This document shows positions 1-51,332 of a DNA stretch of 51,572 nt, one piece after another. The stretch covers positions 1-51,572 of the forward strand of contig NEWT02000022.1 in NCBI GenBank assembly GCA_002869925.2. Reading direction: 5' to 3'. The position numbers and the translations under genes are program-made. The stretch's first letter is position 1. Each line of letters begins with the position of its first letter. The DNA comes from Nitrospira sp. CG24A. Lineage in GTDB: Bacteria > Nitrospirota > Nitrospiria > Nitrospirales > Nitrospiraceae. A model generated the notes under the pieces. The model had not been told where the DNA came from. It did no database searches and saw nothing but the letters and a program-made list of their open reading frames with translations.

Positions 1-95
1 GAATGGATCTTGGCGAACGGAAAATACCCTCCAGTGCTTCCGAGCCTCTGAGCGATGCGAGAACGCCGCTGGCGGACTTTTTCAGCATCCGGCTA
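1..95 (-). repeat. Dispersed intergenic repeat, copy A (edge)
   Basis: The block at about 53-90 (gatgcgagaacgccgctggc followed by a pyrimidine-rich stretch and cagcatcc) recurs almost unchanged at 47967-48003 and, more diverged, at 48782-48817. Read on the minus strand the element starts with a TAG that is the stop codon of lgt (93-95), then runs CCGGATGCTGAAAAAG and on through a short CGCC/GGCG hairpin. The far part of the element is weak in this copy or lies outside the window. Confidence 0.75.
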
Positions 96-905
96 AGATT
101 TGGCCTGAATCAAGGCCCGCCGCTGATAGCCGATGGCAAGCATGACGACTCCCACGACGATCATAGGTAAGGAGAGGAGTTGGCCCATGGAGAAAGATCC
201 AAGGATAAAACCGAGGTGGGCATCCGGTTCGCGAAAGAATTCTACGATCATTCGACAGACACCATAGCCGGTGATAAAGCTCCAGAAGAGGGTGCCTGGC
301 GGCGGGGTGGTTTTGGAGATGACCCATACCAGCGTAAATAAGAACACACCTTCGAGTCCTGCCTCATAGAGTTGCGAAGGATGTCGGCAGGCAGGCCCTC
401 CACTCGGAAATACCATACACCAGTCGACATCGGTGGCTCGGCCATACAACTCTCCATTGATGAAGTTGCCGATTCGTCCGAACCCGAGCCCGATCGGTGT
501 GACGGCTGCTGCTAAGTCTGCGACCTGGTAGGTGGGAATACCCTGCCGTTGGCTGAACCAAACCAGGGCAACGATGGCGCCGAGCAGGCCGCCGTGGAAG
601 GACATGCCCCCTTCCCAGACTGCCACGATACTGGCTGGATGCTGGATATAGTAAGAAAAATTATAGAAGAGTGTATAGCCGAGTCGTCCTCCGATAAATA
701 ACCCGAATGCAGCCCACACGACCATGTTGTACACCTGATCCTTGGTCATGGCGAGGCCCCTCGACTCCACTCGACGTTTGATCAGAAAATAGGCACAGGC
801 CAGTCCGATGAGATACATCAGACCATACCAGCGAAACTGCAAGGGTCCCAGCTCAAAAAAGACCGGGCTGATGTTGGGGAAGGGGATCGCGTGCAACCAA
901 GTCAT
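93..905 (-). CDS. lgt: Prolipoprotein diacylglyceryl transferase
   Basis: Inner-membrane enzyme that moves diacylglycerol from phosphatidylglycerol to the lipobox Cys of prolipoproteins, the first step of lipoprotein maturation. The 270 residues match the family length and hold about seven hydrophobic segments. The Lgt signature GRIGNFINGELYG lies at 143-155, with the arginine at the position of the essential E. coli Arg143; His103 in MSFHGG matches the essential E. coli His103, and RHPSQLYE follows at 174-181. The gene is transcribed alone leftwards. Its TAG stop coincides with the first bases of a dispersed repeat, so the repeat probably forms the mRNA 3' end. Confidence 0.97.
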   Translation of the reverse strand: MTWLHAIPFPNISPVFFELGPLQFRWYGLMYLIGLACAYFLIKRRVESRGLAMTKDQVYNMVVWAAFGLFIGGRLGYTLFYNFSYYIQHPASIVAVWEGGMSFHGGLLGAIVALVWFSQRQGIPTYQVADLAAAVTPIGLGFGRIGNFINGELYGRATDVDWCMVFPSGGPACRHPSQLYEAGLEGVFLFTLVWVISKTTPPPGTLFWSFITGYGVCRMIVEFFREPDAHLGFILGSFSMGQLLSLPMIVVGVVMLAIGYQRRALIQAKS

Positions 906-15956: not shown

Positions 15957-16850
15957 TTATCGGCGAACCGCGTGGCCGCCAAAGGCATTGCGCAACGCGG
16001 CCAACATCTTTTCCGCAAAGGATTCGCTCTGTCTCGATCGGAATCGAGTAAACAATGCCGTCGTGAGTGTCGGGACTGGCACATCCTTCTCTATCGCATC
16101 AGCGATCATCCATCGGCCCTCACCGGAATCTTGCACATAGCCCTTCAACTGTTCCAGCCGCGGATCCTCTTTCAAGGCACCGGCCGCCAGTTCCAAGAGC
16201 CAGGAGCGGACGACGCTGCCGTGCATCCAAAGGTCTGCGATCTTGGCGAGATTGAGCTTGTAGTCGCTTTTCGCCATCAGCTCAAAGCCCTCCGCATATC
16301 CCTGCATCATGCTATATTCGATTCCGTTATGCACCATTTTCACGTAATGTCCCGCGCCGACTCCGCCGACGTGAGCCCACCCTTGTTCGGGCGCCAGTGT
16401 TGTGAAGATCGGTGCGAGTTGTTTCACGGGCGCCTCGTCGCCGCCGACCATCAGGCAGTAACCGATTTTCAACCCCCAGATGCCTCCGCTGGTTCCCGCA
16501 TCGACATAATGAAGCTGTTTTTTCTTGAGGTCCCCGGCCCGTCGAACATCGTCGTGAAATCTGGTGTTGCCGCCATCGATGACCGTGTCGCCAGGGTGAA
16601 GCAGCGCCGCAACGGCCTGAACGGTTTCCTCCGTCGGCGCGCCGGATGGGACCATAATCCAGACTGCGCGTGGGCCTTTGAGTTGGCCGATGAGATCGGC
16701 TAACGAAGAGGCACCGATGCAGCCAACACTTTCGGCCTGTTTGATCAGCTCTGCGGATCGATCGTAGACCACCACCCGATGCCGGTCACGTTGTAATCGA
16801 GTGACCATGTTCATGCCCATTTTCCCAAGTCCGATAAACCCGATTTCCAT
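15957..16850 (-). CDS. gnd: 6-phosphogluconate dehydrogenase (decarboxylating), short form
   Basis: Converts 6-phosphogluconate to ribulose 5-phosphate. At 297 residues it is the short YqeC/GntZ-like form, not the roughly 470-residue enteric form. The Rossmann loop GLGKMGMNMVTRL is at 7-19 and the substrate motif VDAGTSGGIWGL follows at about 136-147; the catalytic Lys lies in GAGHYVKMVHNGIEY. AAGGAG precedes the ATG by 5 bases. It is first in the gnd-zwf operon. Confidence 0.95.
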   Translation of the reverse strand: MEIGFIGLGKMGMNMVTRLQRDRHRVVVYDRSAELIKQAESVGCIGASSLADLIGQLKGPRAVWIMVPSGAPTEETVQAVAALLHPGDTVIDGGNTRFHDDVRRAGDLKKKQLHYVDAGTSGGIWGLKIGYCLMVGGDEAPVKQLAPIFTTLAPEQGWAHVGGVGAGHYVKMVHNGIEYSMMQGYAEGFELMAKSDYKLNLAKIADLWMHGSVVRSWLLELAAGALKEDPRLEQLKGYVQDSGEGRWMIADAIEKDVPVPTLTTALFTRFRSRQSESFAEKMLAALRNAFGGHAVRR

Positions 16851-19621: not shown

Positions 19622-20986
19622 ATGCATGAAGTTCCAGTGAAGATTTATCTCGATAGACTATTGAAAGACTGTAAAAATACCGCGAGGTCACTCGCGCTTC
19701 TCTCCGGCCCGGTCAAAGAGAAAGCCCTACGTGCGATGGCTGATCGATTAGCGGTCGACGAAGAAAAGATCCTTGCGGCGAACGAAAAAGATGTGGATGC
19801 GGTTGGGAAATCCTTCGAGGCTGATGTCATCAAGGATCGGATGAAGGCCGCCGTGGCCCGCTTGCGTATGACGGCGAGCGATATTAAGGAGATGGTGGAT
19901 CGTCTTCGCCTGATCGCAGATCTGCCGGATCCGGTTGGTGCTGTCACCTCGCGAGGCGAACGACCGGACGGACTACAAGTAAGTCGTGTCCGCGTTCCGA
20001 TCGGGGTGATCGGGGTGGTATCGGAACTGAGTCCGCTCATTACCGTGGAGTCGATCGCACTCTGCTTTAAGTCTGGCAACTTATGCGTCTTTCGTGGCGC
20101 TCCGGAGTGGGGTCTGACACAGCAGGCAATTGGAGGTGGGCTCCGCGAAGCCGCGGAGCAAAGTGGGGTGTCGGCCGGCGCATGGATTATCATCGAGCGT
20201 CCTGAAAAAGAGGTGGCAGTCGAGCTGATTCGGGCGGGAAAAAGTCTTGATGCGATTATCCCGCGAGGCGGGGCAGGTCTCAGAAGATCCGTTGTGGAGC
20301 AGGCGAAGATGCCGGTGCTGTGCCACGACGGGGGGCTCACACAGATGTACGTAGATGCCGACACGGATCTGCCGATGGCTCAGAATGTGGCGATCAACTC
20401 CAAGGTACAGAAGGCTGTGGCATCGAACTCGCTCGATACGCTACTGGTGCAACAGGTGATTGGGCGGCAGTTTTTGCCGCCGCTGGTGAACCGTATGCTC
20501 GAAGAATTTAAGGTCGAGGTTCGGGCCTGTCCGAAGACCATGGCCCTCATGGGACAAATGGCGATGACTGGACATGCCTCGATCATTCCGGCGAAAGAGC
20601 AGGACTGGGATACCCAGTTTCAGTCGCCTGTATTAGCCGTTAAAATGGTTGCGGATCTGGATGAGGCGTTGGCGCACATTGTGGCGCATGGCCCATGTCT
20701 CACCGCCGTCATTGCCACTACGAGCTATGAGTCGGCTTTGCGATTTACACGGGAGGTCGATGCTAGCGCGGTGTTCGTCAATGCGTCGTCTCGGCTCAAT
20801 GCCGGTGACAGCTACGGGATGGGAGCCGATGTCGGGCTCAGTGGCTCACGTCTTCATGCCAAGGGCCCGATCGGTCTTGAGCAGTTGACCTGTGAAAAGT
20901 ATGTTGCTTTTGGCTCGGGCCAGTTACGCTATCCGCATCCGGTGCCGGAGGCGTATTTTGACGCGATCATGCTGAAGAGGCCGTAG
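19622..20986 (+). CDS. ProA-like protein lacking the catalytic Cys
   Basis: A 454-residue homologue of glutamate-5-semialdehyde dehydrogenase (ProA), the NADPH-dependent reductase of proline synthesis. The whole length aligns with ProA: the N-terminal helices, RVRVPIGVIGVVSELSP, LIPRGGAGL-like IIPRGGAGLRRS, and the ending VGLSGSRLHAKGPIGLEQLT. Three conserved sites differ. The catalytic Cys of the CNxxETLLV motif is Ser268 (ASNSLDTLLV). The GVCHIYVD motif is GLTQMYVD. The HGxxHSDAI signature is HGPCLTAVI. It is therefore unlikely to be a normal ProA, and a genuine proA should exist elsewhere. GAGGG lies 6 bases before the ATG. Confidence 0.85.
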   Translation: MHEVPVKIYLDRLLKDCKNTARSLALLSGPVKEKALRAMADRLAVDEEKILAANEKDVDAVGKSFEADVIKDRMKAAVARLRMTASDIKEMVDRLRLIADLPDPVGAVTSRGERPDGLQVSRVRVPIGVIGVVSELSPLITVESIALCFKSGNLCVFRGAPEWGLTQQAIGGGLREAAEQSGVSAGAWIIIERPEKEVAVELIRAGKSLDAIIPRGGAGLRRSVVEQAKMPVLCHDGGLTQMYVDADTDLPMAQNVAINSKVQKAVASNSLDTLLVQQVIGRQFLPPLVNRMLEEFKVEVRACPKTMALMGQMAMTGHASIIPAKEQDWDTQFQSPVLAVKMVADLDEALAHIVAHGPCLTAVIATTSYESALRFTREVDASAVFVNASSRLNAGDSYGMGADVGLSGSRLHAKGPIGLEQLTCEKYVAFGSGQLRYPHPVPEAYFDAIMLKRP

Positions 20987-21126
20987 CCGCCTGCTGAAAA
21001 CGTTCCCCGGATTCGGTCTCAGTCGTTTGAGCCGCTCAACGTGCCCTCACCGAGTAGGTTTCGTGGCTCGCACTCCTGCACGCCTCGCTGGAAACCGCTT
21101 TGACCTGGCATGTCGGGGCTCCAACG

Positions 21127-43057: not shown

Positions 43058-43592
43058 AGGTCACGATTCTCAGCGTTGCGTCAAGATTGACGGGATTATC
43101 GTATTTCGGTTTGATTTGCAGATGATGCACTTGAACGTCATAGGGTGCCCGTTCGATGGCCGCCAGCAGCGCGAGGAGCTGAGGAAGCGACACGCCATCG
43201 ACCCGAAGATCGACCGCGGTTTCCTGATAGCCCTCGACGACAGTAGCGGCCTGCGGCTGCAGGCCGACGATGCGATCGCGAATCTGTGCCGTCGTCGTTG
43301 CTTCTTCCATGAACGCCAGCAGCGAAAACTGGGCCGGGGGGCTCGGCATGCGTTGTTCAACTTTGGTGATACGCGCCTGCTTGACCACGTACTCCTGCGC
43401 GACAAGTGCGAGTTCCTGACTGTCTTTCGCTTTCCGCTTCGCGTGCCGATCGAGCTTGTCGATCGAGGCCATGAGCGGATCGACGATCAGGAGAAAGAGG
43501 AGTGCGGCTATAACCATGGCGCCGCCGGCCGCCACGATGATGCGCTCGCGCTGCGAGAACTGCTGCCATCGTTCTTTCAGCATCTGCATCAT
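43044..43592 (-). CDS. gspM: Type II secretion assembly protein GspM
   Basis: A 182-residue inner-membrane protein. One transmembrane helix ([18 protein letters not shown], about 21-38) follows the cytoplasmic [14 protein letters not shown], then a coiled coil and a ferredoxin-like periplasmic domain. GspM partners GspL in the inner-membrane platform. It overlaps gspL by 4 bases (stop-start). A diverged second copy of this gene's 5' part is at 50914-51332. Confidence 0.92.
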   Translation of the reverse strand: MMQMLKERWQQFSQRERIIVAAGGAMVIAALLFLLIVDPLMASIDKLDRHAKRKAKDSQELALVAQEYVVKQARITKVEQRMPSPPAQFSLLAFMEEATTTAQIRDRIVGLQPQAATVVEGYQETAVDLRVDGVSLPQLLALLAAIERAPYDVQVHHLQIKPKYDNPVNLDATLRIVTYAKV

Positions 43593-47248: not shown

Positions 47249-47869
47249 TCAAGGTTGGCGCGAATCCTTCACGACTTCGGTCATTTTGAGTAATGGCTTC
47301 ACTCGATCGAGAATGAGAAGCGGCGTAGGGGGGGGAGGGTCGATCCGTTCATCGCTCATTCGAATGGCTCCTGTCACCGGCTCAATGGCGATGGCCAGAA
47401 GGTTGTTGCGTGTATCCACCAAATGCATCGTCATCGGATCGATCCTTCCTGAGGGGTAGAAGGACAGATCGACCCGACCGGAGCTTTTTATCACCTGACC
47501 GACCACCATATCTGAGATACGAAAGGGGGCCGGAAGGTGTAATGGTGTGGCCCATGTGGGGTGTTCGATCGGCACTTTTTCCTGGTCCCCATCCAGGATC
47601 ATTAGCCAATAGACCCCTCGGTCAATATCGACGTACAGTCGGAGTGGCTTCTGGGTCACCATGGACAGGTCTTGGAGGGATCGTACCGTTCGGACCATCT
47701 GTCGCCCGACAGACCCCAGGTTTTCTTCCAGCGAAATGCGAGGCAGCACGATGCCGAGTAACCCGACGAATAGAAATAAGACGATGATGATTTCCAGAAT
47801 GGTGAACCCACGTGTGGAGCGTAAAGCGTGAGGGGTGAGGGGTGGGGGGTGTCTTTCACCGGATGACAA
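47249..47869 (-). CDS. gspH: Type II secretion minor pseudopilin GspH
   Basis: A 206-residue GspH. The prepilin site is RGFTILEIIIVLFLFVGLLG. A proper ATG is missing just upstream: a TTG at 47869 gives a leader of about 20 residues with a basic proline-rich sequence, and the long open reading upstream runs into the repeat element, so it is not coding. VGRQMVRTVRSLQDLSM and LSFYPSGRIDPMTMHL are conserved GspH features. The start is uncertain. Confidence 0.85.
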   Translation of the reverse strand: MSSGERHPPPLTPHALRSTRGFTILEIIIVLFLFVGLLGIVLPRISLEENLGSVGRQMVRTVRSLQDLSMVTQKPLRLYVDIDRGVYWLMILDGDQEKVPIEHPTWATPLHLPAPFRISDMVVGQVIKSSGRVDLSFYPSGRIDPMTMHLVDTRNNLLAIAIEPVTGAIRMSDERIDPPPPTPLLILDRVKPLLKMTEVVKDSRQP

Positions 47870-47880
47870 GGAGTTGTCCC

Positions 47881-48008
47881 GCAGGACGCTCAAAAATGCT
47901 GTCCAGGAAGGCCGCAGCAAATGAAGATCCGAGGCGTACCCTCTGGGGTACGTTGAGGGTCTGAACGATGCGAAAACGCCGCTGGCGGCCTTTTTCAGCA
48001 TCCTGCTA
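47881..48008 (-). repeat. Dispersed intergenic repeat, copy B
   Basis: Fills the gap between gspH and gspG. Read on the minus strand it starts with the gspG stop TAG and GCAGGATGCTGAAAAAG, then the CGCC/GGCG hairpin, GACCCTCAACGTACC and the complementary GGTACG, and ends near GCGTCCTGC. It resembles copy A and, less closely, copy C. Confidence 0.85.
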
Positions 48009-48569
48009 TTCCTTATCCAGATTCCAATTGTTGATATCGGCATTGATGCCTTCGCCGCCTGTTTCGCCATCGGTGCCGAGCGAGATAACATCGTACTCAC
48101 CTCTCAGGCTAGAGGTCTGCCCGGGATTCTGAATGGGAGTCTGACTGGGACTAAAATACTTGTAGGGGTTTCCCCAGGGATCTTCCGGGAGTTTTTGAAT
48201 ATACCCTCCGAGTTTCCACTTCTTGGGGACGACTCCCACCGAAGGTTTTTCGACCAGAGCTTTTAGCCCTTGTTCAGTCGTGGGATAGATACCGTTGTCG
48301 AGCTTATAGAGCTGCAAGGCGCCTTCGATATTTCGGATTTGAACTTTCGCCGCAGTGCGTTTTGCGTCATCGGTCCGCCCCATGATGCGAGGGACGACCA
48401 AAGCTGCGAGGATCGCGAGAATGGCCACCACGACCATGATTTCGATGAACGTGAAGCCAGCATCGCCCCTGCAGGCACGGGGAGTGAGGCGCAAGGCAAG
48501 GGAGCCTCGGCGCCTGCGTGTGCTGTTCCACAAGGTCCATATGTTCTCAGCCCAGGCTCGTCCACTCAT
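48006..48569 (-). CDS. gspG: Type II secretion major pseudopilin GspG
   Basis: A 187-residue major pseudopilin. The processing site is AGFTFIEIMVVVAILAILAA. The leader is unusually long (about 37 residues, arginine-rich: STRRRRGSLALRLTP), where 6-10 is normal. The mature protein has NIEGALQLYKLDNGIYPTTE and the calcium-binding-type end YDVISLGTDGETGGEGINAD. GGAGG lies 5 bases before ATG 48569. Confidence 0.93.
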   Translation of the reverse strand: MSGRAWAENIWTLWNSTRRRRGSLALRLTPRACRGDAGFTFIEIMVVVAILAILAALVVPRIMGRTDDAKRTAAKVQIRNIEGALQLYKLDNGIYPTTEQGLKALVEKPSVGVVPKKWKLGGYIQKLPEDPWGNPYKYFSPSQTPIQNPGQTSSLRGEYDVISLGTDGETGGEGINADINNWNLDKE

Positions 48570-48696
48570 CGAACACCTCCCGTTAGACTCGGTACCGATC
48601 ATCTTCCAGTAATCGTTACTCTAGTAGGCTGCGGAAAGACCATTTCAGAGGATAACACTCCGAATGTGCCCTCGCGTGATACCACAACGGAATATT

Positions 48697-48822
48697 CCTG
48701 GAGGAGACTCAAAAGGCCGTCAGCAAGGCGCATCGAGTGAAAGCCCGAAGCGTCCCTCCAGGGTACGTTGAGGGTCTACACGATGCAAGAACGAAGCTGG
48801 CGTGATTTCCAGCTTCCTGCTA
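48697..48822 (-). repeat. Dispersed intergenic repeat, copy C
   Basis: In the gap before gspG. It shares ggtacgttgagggtct with copy B and has the more diverged block cgatgcaagaacgaagctgg. The gspF stop TAG (48820-48822) is again at its edge, followed in the minus direction by CAGGAAGCTGGAAATCACGC. Confidence 0.75.
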
Positions 48823-50058
48823 GCGCACCATTTGTCCCATCTCAAAGATGGGCAACAAGATTGCTACCACGATACAGAACACCAAGATACCCATGGCCAG
48901 GATCATAATGGGTTCCAAGAGAGAGGTAAATCGTGTAATAACCCGATCGACTTCTCCATCATAAATATGGCCGATGCGGCGCAGCATCTCTTCCATTTCG
49001 CCGCTGCGTTCACCGACTGCGATCATGTGCGTGACCAGCGCAGGAAATTCTCCGCTCCGCTTCAATGGCTCGGCAATCGTTTCCCCTTCCCGTATATTCT
49101 GTCTCGCCCCCTCGACGGCATACTCGAGAACGCGATTGTTCATCACACGTTTTGCGACGTCCATGGCATCCAACAGTTGCACACCGCTCGCCAGCATGGT
49201 AGCCATTGTGCTCGTAAGCCGAGAGATGGCGACCATACGGGCTACCTCGCCCATCAATGGCATCTTCAAGAGCCATCGGTCAGCCGTGAGCTGCCCCGCT
49301 TCTGTTTTTAACGCCCGGCGTGCCGCCCACACTGTGATACCCACCCCACCAAGTATCACCGCCCAATAGTCGGCAAGAAAATGGCTGATGCTCATCAGTA
49401 CGACGGTCGGCCAGGGGAGGGCCTGCTTCAAGCTCGTAAAAACGGCGGTGATTTTTGGCACCACAAAGGTCATGAGGAAAAACAGCACCGTGACGCCGAC
49501 GATCAGCATCAGGGCCGGATAGAGCACGGCATTCGTCACTTTATGCTTGAGCGCCAGCTGTTTTTCCAGAAACTCTGCAAGGCGGAAGAGGATCTGATCC
49601 AACGCTCCGCTGGCCTCGCCGGCGCGCACCATATGCACATAAATCTGAGAAAACTCTCGTGGATAGCGCTCAAGCACGGCGCTATAGGATGCTCCTCCAC
49701 GAATCTCTTCACGGATATCGGCCATGAGACTCTTCACGGATTTCTTCTCGGTTTGATCCACCATCACTCCGAGCGCCTCGACGAGCGGTAGGCCTGCGAC
49801 CAGTAATGTCGCCAGCTGCCGGGTCATCATCGCCACGTCGGTTGTGCTGAGAGCAGGAGACCGCCCGATTCCAGTAGTGGATCGTCCCGATGTGTTAGTG
49901 GATGAGGTGGTTGTGGCCAGGCCTTGTTCCACCATATCGGTGGGAAATACGCCGACCTTCCGCAACTTGACGCGCGCGACCTTGGGGCTCTCGGCATCGA
50001 TGATGCCGGCCGCAGTTCCACCGTCGTTTCGATAGCCTTTATATTGATAGACAGGCAT
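48820..50058 (-). CDS. gspF: Type II secretion inner-membrane protein GspF
   Basis: A 412-residue polytopic platform protein. The first 60 residues hold the cytoplasmic start MPVYQYKGYRNDGG; two repeated GspF domains follow (TTDVAMMTRQLATLLVAGLP and ISRLTSTMATMLASGVQLLD). Three hydrophobic segments lie near 175-200, 222-242 and 380-405. GAGGG lies upstream of the ATG. It couples the GspE ATPase to pseudopilus assembly. Confidence 0.95.
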   Translation of the reverse strand: MPVYQYKGYRNDGGTAAGIIDAESPKVARVKLRKVGVFPTDMVEQGLATTTSSTNTSGRSTTGIGRSPALSTTDVAMMTRQLATLLVAGLPLVEALGVMVDQTEKKSVKSLMADIREEIRGGASYSAVLERYPREFSQIYVHMVRAGEASGALDQILFRLAEFLEKQLALKHKVTNAVLYPALMLIVGVTVLFFLMTFVVPKITAVFTSLKQALPWPTVVLMSISHFLADYWAVILGGVGITVWAARRALKTEAGQLTADRWLLKMPLMGEVARMVAISRLTSTMATMLASGVQLLDAMDVAKRVMNNRVLEYAVEGARQNIREGETIAEPLKRSGEFPALVTHMIAVGERSGEMEEMLRRIGHIYDGEVDRVITRFTSLLEPIMILAMGILVFCIVVAILLPIFEMGQMVR

Positions 50059-50913: not shown

Positions 50914-51332
50914 AGGAGCTGGGGTAGCGTCACGCCGTCGAGCCGTAGATCGACAGAAGTTTCTTGATAGCCCTGGACGACCATAGGGGCCTGTGGCTGC
51001 ATGCCGACGATTCGATCGCGGATCTTCACGGACGTCGTTGCTTCCTCCATGAACGCCAACAAGGAAAACTGGGCGGGCGGGTTCGGCATGCGCTCTTCGA
51101 GCTTGGTCATGCGAGCCTGTTTCACTGCGTAATCCTGCGCCAGGAGTGCAAGCTCTTGGCTGTCCTTCGTCTTTTTCCGCGCCTGCCGATCGAGCTTGTC
51201 GATCGACGCTAAGAGTGGGTCGACAATCAGCAAAAAGACCAACGCTGCTGCCAATATGGCGCCCCCCGCAGCCACGATGATGCGCTCGCGTTGTGAGAAC
51301 TGTAGCCACCGTTCTTTCAGGACTTGCATCAT
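50914..51332 (-). pseudogene. Second copy of gspM, truncated at its 3' end
   Basis: The first 140 residues are close to the GspM at 43044-43592: [38 protein letters not shown] and [20 protein letters not shown]. After LPQLL the homology stops and the gspE fragment begins. No insertions or deletions are seen against the first copy (constant offset of 7740 bases). Confidence 0.9.

Follow-up and report, generated by a model that had tools for sequence, protein, structure and literature searches.

The repeat that adjoins the stop codons of lgt, gspG, and gspF in Nitrospira sp. CG24A is identified here, with a probability of about 0.9, as a non-autonomous MITE that is putatively moved in trans by a DDE transposase of the IS5/IS1182 type, inserts at and duplicates YTAR tetranucleotides, and leaves a stop codon in place when it lands on one. 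This reading draws on comparisons at the level of sequence, which establish the ends of the element, the duplication of its target, filled sites with their exact empty counterparts, unaltered C termini of the genes concerned, and insertion sequences that match it in ends and target. The points of interest are the way in which a duplicated CTAG keeps the stop and the excess of copies in one orientation.

Genome, samples, and copies in the window

The window (the whole stretch analyzed, 51,572 nucleotides) is contig C15 of a 3.36-Mb, 40-contig assembly (genome label G000), whose nearest named relatives are Nitrospira sp. RSF11 and RSF6 (gspF protein identity of 97 and 96%, respectively). Counts for this genome come from unbiased stretches that include the window and total 851,572 bp (~852 kb), and those for a second species come from one 400-kb stretch. 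Genes were called with a home-made hexamer model, which left 23% of the sequence non-coding, above the likely value, and element ends were detected by pattern with a limit of 3 mismatches.

A complete copy of 195 bp (48625..48819, minus strand; left end 48819, right end 48625), delimited by comparing filled with empty sites, lies 3' of gspF (48820..50058, minus strand), the gene for the type II secretion inner membrane protein (TIGR02120, above cut-off). It is bordered by a CTAG target duplication recognized from sequence and ortholog comparison, with the left copy at 48820..48823, where 48820-48822 on the minus strand is the gspF TAG stop, and the right copy at 48621..48624. The copy after gspG (47881..48005, minus strand; nhmmer, 116 bits) runs from the left end to the internal right arm, the far right arm having been lost, and follows the gene for the major pseudopilin (48006..48602, minus strand; TIGR01710; TAG stop at 48006-48008, flank ATAG). 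The copy after lgt (1..92, minus strand; nhmmer) is cut by the contig end, position 1 of the window falling within it, so that the assembly breaks at the repeat; lgt itself (93..905, minus strand; TIGR00544) has its TAG stop at 93-95 with the flank TTAG, and a complete element copy is present at the same lgt gene end in relative L186. The identities of lgt, gspG, and gspF are backed by NCBIfam equivalog models. All three genes do end, as the preliminary description had it, with a TAG at the start of the element, directly followed by C(A/C)GGATGCTG or CAGGAAGCTG. A probable, strongly diverged fourth copy occupies 20984..21103 on the plus strand (nhmmer, 25.9 bits over 20991-21103), where the gene at 19622-20986 ends at the TAG of 20984-20986 and is followed by CCGCCTGCTGAAAACG.

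The element encodes no protein, is 165-278 bp long, has ends of the form CAGG(A/C)TGC(T/G)GAAAAA, and contains an internal hairpin of 125 nt. Its terminal inverted repeats are CAGGATGCTGAAAAA on the left and CAGGCTGCGGAAAAAC on the right, plus variants, and the right end is lost in many copies. The arm at 47881 and 48697 was considered as an element end and rejected, being an internal inverted repeat for which just 1.5% of cases have a YTAR flank. This arm had first been taken as the right end, but the true one is ~75 bp further on, and ~75 bp of the gspF copy had been missed. A 16-nt end, GCAGGATGCTGAAAAA, has 338 genome-wide matches at ≤2 mismatches versus 2 for the reversed pattern. It is present in 32/32 Nitrospira genomes, with about 13 to 300 matches each; further genera of the family have it as well, and its occurrence across the phylum is sporadic.

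Insertion into pre-existing stop codons

Comparison with orthologous genes is most direct at gspF. In L116, the filled site consists of CGCTAG, a 201-bp element, and CTAGAGGCAGTGATC, compared with CGCTAGAGGCAGTGATC at the empty site in L108; L141 is likewise empty. Both in the window and in L101, the 195-bp copy stands between CTAG and CTAG, and the empty relatives have a single CTAG and an unchanged protein end. One event common to several species probably accounts for the gspF insertion. At the gspG site, the element is absent from the close relatives L101 and L141. In copies that retain both ends, the two 4-bp flanks match each other but vary from copy to copy (CTAG, CTAA, TTAG, and ATAG), and of 13 paired ends, 6 are identical over 4 bp and 4 more have one mismatch. 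The flanks represent a YTAR-type target-site duplication.

Across 43 gspF, 41 gspG, and 25 lgt orthologs, presence or absence of the element makes no difference to the C terminus, and orthologs that lack the element stop at the same codon, whether TAG, TAA, or TGA. It follows that insertion took place into a stop that already existed, and because CTAG or TTAG is duplicated on insertion, a full copy remains beside the gene and the stop survives. The element gives no stop to a gene previously without one; the stops found at element ends come from the target and not from stop recognition. The preliminary description, which had proposed that the element inserts at a stop codon or that its end forms one, was right about insertion at stops, whereas the notion of a newly supplied stop gives way to one in which the existing stop is rebuilt by CTAG/YTAR duplication. 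Its proposed comparison with relatives lacking the copy showed the same C-terminal codon, an empty CTAG site, and a mobile element. Truncation of genes by the element was a separate candidate and was rejected, as the C termini match those of orthologs without it.

Insertion sequences with the same ends

A genus-wide search for DDE transposases identified insertion sequences that are 1318-1378 bp long, have CAGGCTGCGGAAAAAC or CAGGCTGTTGACAAAC as their ends and CTAG or TTAG as flanks, and encode proteins combining DUF772 with DDE_Tnp_1. The transposases of G020 and G021 score above the NCBIfam IS5_4 cut-off (NF033581); for the other three tested, the top score is to IS1182, below its cut-off, and L167 among them just reaches the IS5_4 cut-off. 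The right end of one MITE copy is identical to the end of the G021 insertion sequence in 18/18 bases, and G020 and G021 (sister species) carry the same-end autonomous partners in the lineage. On the evidence of the ends, an IS5_4-type transposase would be the one that moves the MITE. The incomplete assembly of the own genome yielded no insertion sequence that has exactly the CAGGCTGCGGAAAAAC end, but there is one related insertion sequence, with ends CAGGCTGTTGACAAAC. The own-genome insertion sequence (G000:C22) itself occupies the TAG stop of a gene for a YghX-like hydrolase, and the family match of this hydrolase extends nearly to the protein end. The bodies of the MITE and of the insertion sequences share no similarity apart from the ends, and the MITE is therefore not a simple deletion of the insertion sequence copies found.

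In the reading preferred here, the IS5/IS1182-type DDE transposase, acting in trans, would put the MITE into a YTAR site of 4 bp, for the most part CTAG, and duplicate that site. CTAG and TTAG are scarce in coding sequence but arise wherever a codon ending in C or T precedes a TAG stop. When the element lands at such a stop, the duplicate on the gene side retains the stop, the protein is unaltered, and the insertion survives, while insertions within genes are lost.

Over-use of stop codons

In the ~852-kb sample, the left end lies exactly at the stop of the upstream gene in 40/98 copies, a number that describes copies rather than independent events and surviving insertions only, compared with 0.08% expected at offset 0 for random non-coding positions. 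The stop at the left end is usually TAG, the first base of the element being the G in that reading, and 5 more genes in the same sample continue for another 11 bases and use the TGA within GCTGA. For the internal right arm, just 1/79 cases there coincide with a stop (left versus right, Fisher p=2e-11), and in the second species, 9/38 left ends and 0/24 internal right arms are at stops. The preliminary judgment that three unrelated genes would hardly end in one element by chance is borne out by these figures, and the distances of copies to stops, which it had asked about, are not random in either species.

Several of the left ends away from stops are positioned immediately upstream of a Shine-Dalgarno sequence whose gene points away (for example, G000:C31 64387, 146113, and 174467), so that the left end tends to touch the border of functional sequence on the gene-start side too. 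In the window, a left-end-like TTAGGATACTGAAAAA at ~16865 (plus strand) precedes the reverse gene 15957-16850, being 15 nt from its start and adjoining its Shine-Dalgarno sequence.

Among free non-coding YTAR sites, 181/1257 (14%) are stops, a share that missed genes could lift to perhaps 20% by our estimate, and with random orientation ~7-10% of left ends would be expected to face a stop. The observed figure for YTAR-flanked left ends is 29/50 (binomial p about 1e-16 against 10%), stops being about 5-7 times over-used relative to the available YTAR sites; 11 left ends are at stops with non-YTAR flanks, such as ATAG or GTAG. Choice of YTAR alone was considered as the explanation of the whole stop excess and is rejected by this census. 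In tandem gaps, the left end is directed towards the upstream stop in 31/43 cases (p=0.005), and few copies (4/60) occupy divergent gaps. The arms of the hairpin share the same departure from consensus 27 times versus 4.6 when shuffled among copies (maximum 12 in 2000), the folding of the gspG copy reaches z = -4.1 against shuffles, and the consensus is laid out on both strands as A-tract, GC stem, loop, GC stem, and U-tract (AAAAAG-stem-loop-stem-CUUUUU).

All of these features, from the stop excess and the orientation bias to the co-varying arms and the strong hairpin, are what would be expected if the element had been selected as a portable gene end, in which a stop and a strong hairpin with A- and U-tracts act together as a putative terminator or protector of the mRNA 3' end and copies adjoining stops help the host. 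We consider this possible, although not probable. Copies stand among the co-directional genes of the gsp cluster, in which strong termination would have polar effects, they are absent from closely related species, and co-variation of the arms can also be produced by correction of the hairpin at the DNA level. A terminator scan over 47700-48900 reported none in the element, a result explained by the loop limit of the scan (3-8 nt), which excludes this hairpin. The fuller version, in which the Nitrospira family as a whole is such a gene end, with the stop kept by CTAG duplication, the hairpin as putative terminator or 3'-end protector, and orientation selected genus-wide, is a shade more doubtful. 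Selection for an mRNA 3' end is a possible cause of the orientation bias and the co-varying arms. More broadly, the stop excess, the orientation, and the co-variation suggest selection for either a harmless position or a 3'-end hairpin; the excess and the co-variation fit either survival at harmless sites with DNA-level hairpin correction or selection of a 3'-end hairpin. For a MITE that duplicates YTAR, over-use of stops beyond target supply may reflect the harmless position, probably together with some benefit of a strong hairpin after the stop.

It is also conceivable, but improbable, that the transposase or integration complex recognizes the context of translation termination or of transcript 3' ends beyond YTAR itself. 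The stop excess above YTAR supply, which includes ATAG and GTAG stops, would accord with such recognition, as would the report that IS5 needs DNA features beyond the tetranucleotide (PMC5493358). However, 58/98 left ends lie away from stops, the use of stops on two sides fits target choice plus survival, and only survivors are seen.

A REP/BIME element moved by a RAYT (Y1) transposase, with a GTAG tag that yields stops by chance, is very improbable: the element is a short palindromic repeat of high copy number, a published report credits GTAG REPs with frequently supplying TAG stops (PMC3733652), and the genome has three Y1_Tnp matches, but 4-bp target duplications contradict this reading, the ends are common to DDE insertion sequences, no element end adjoins any of the three Y1 genes, and in place of a 20-40 bp hairpin with an unpaired GTAG tag there is an element of 165-278 bp whose YTAR flank varies among copies. 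Hence, of the initial label "REP- or MITE-like," the MITE part is retained on the basis of the target duplication and IS5/IS1182-type ends and the kinship with REP/RAYT finds no support, the suggested search for a RAYT-type transposase flanked by the repeat having found none at the three Y1_Tnp loci.

Relation to known repeats

The YTAR-duplicating MITE has known counterparts. MITEPsy1 of Pseudomonas syringae, which is IS5-related and derives from ISPsy2, is likewise short and non-coding, has inverted-repeat ends with a CTGAAAAAGCC core, and duplicates 4 bp, CTAG or YTAA, its transposition having been observed (PMC3189936). It differs in being 100 nt long, with 6 copies, terminal GGAAGG.., and no stop-codon association reported there, whereas the Nitrospira element measures 165-278 bp, exceeds 100 copies, and carries the 125-nt hairpin. 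E. coli IS5 belongs to the same DDE transposase family and duplicates Py-T-A-Pu, most commonly CTAG, a scarce tetranucleotide (PMC5493358), but has another end sequence, while the Nitrospira partners score IS5_4 (NF033581) or below-cut-off IS1182. GTAG-tagged REPs resemble the element in being palindromic, in lying between genes, and in often contributing a TAG stop through their ends (PMC3733652); unlike it, they are 20-40 bp long and RAYT-linked, the Nitrospira element being longer, with a target duplication and a DDE-type partner. SPRITE of Streptococcus pneumoniae is similarly a small dispersed repeat with a terminator-like structure (PMC10969869), with no shared sequence known. Given the reports on IS5, MITEPsy1, and GTAG REPs, there are precedents for this kind of element as well as for the idea that a repeat provides a stop; no paper on this MITE family in Nitrospira was found in the open literature, subscription journals being outside the scope.

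What emerges is a simple rule for repeats that end genes precisely, in that a duplicated target containing a stop lets a transposon enter the last codon with the protein unchanged. The same should hold for any IS5-like element that targets CTAG or YTAR, and many gene-end repeats called REPs may therefore be explained in this way. In addition, a strong, co-varying hairpin stands directly after many gene stops in the main nitrite-oxidizing genus, where effects on transcript ends are testable.

Other repeats were observed at the same sites and in the window. After the gspF stop, L104, L105, L106, and L109 retain the first 25-50 nt only (the left arm, GCAGGAGGCTGAAAAAGTCCGCCAGC), the remainder having been replaced, as though the left arm persists longest. 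In relatives without the element (L108, L112, L114, L117, L118, L123, and L127), the stops of the same genes, gspF and gspG, are followed by other intergenic repeats, which are of low complexity and belong to the types GTGATGAGTGATG and GGTCATTGGTCATC. The window also contains a 300-nt direct repeat, at 43174-43473 and 50914-51213, whose two copies are 79% identical.
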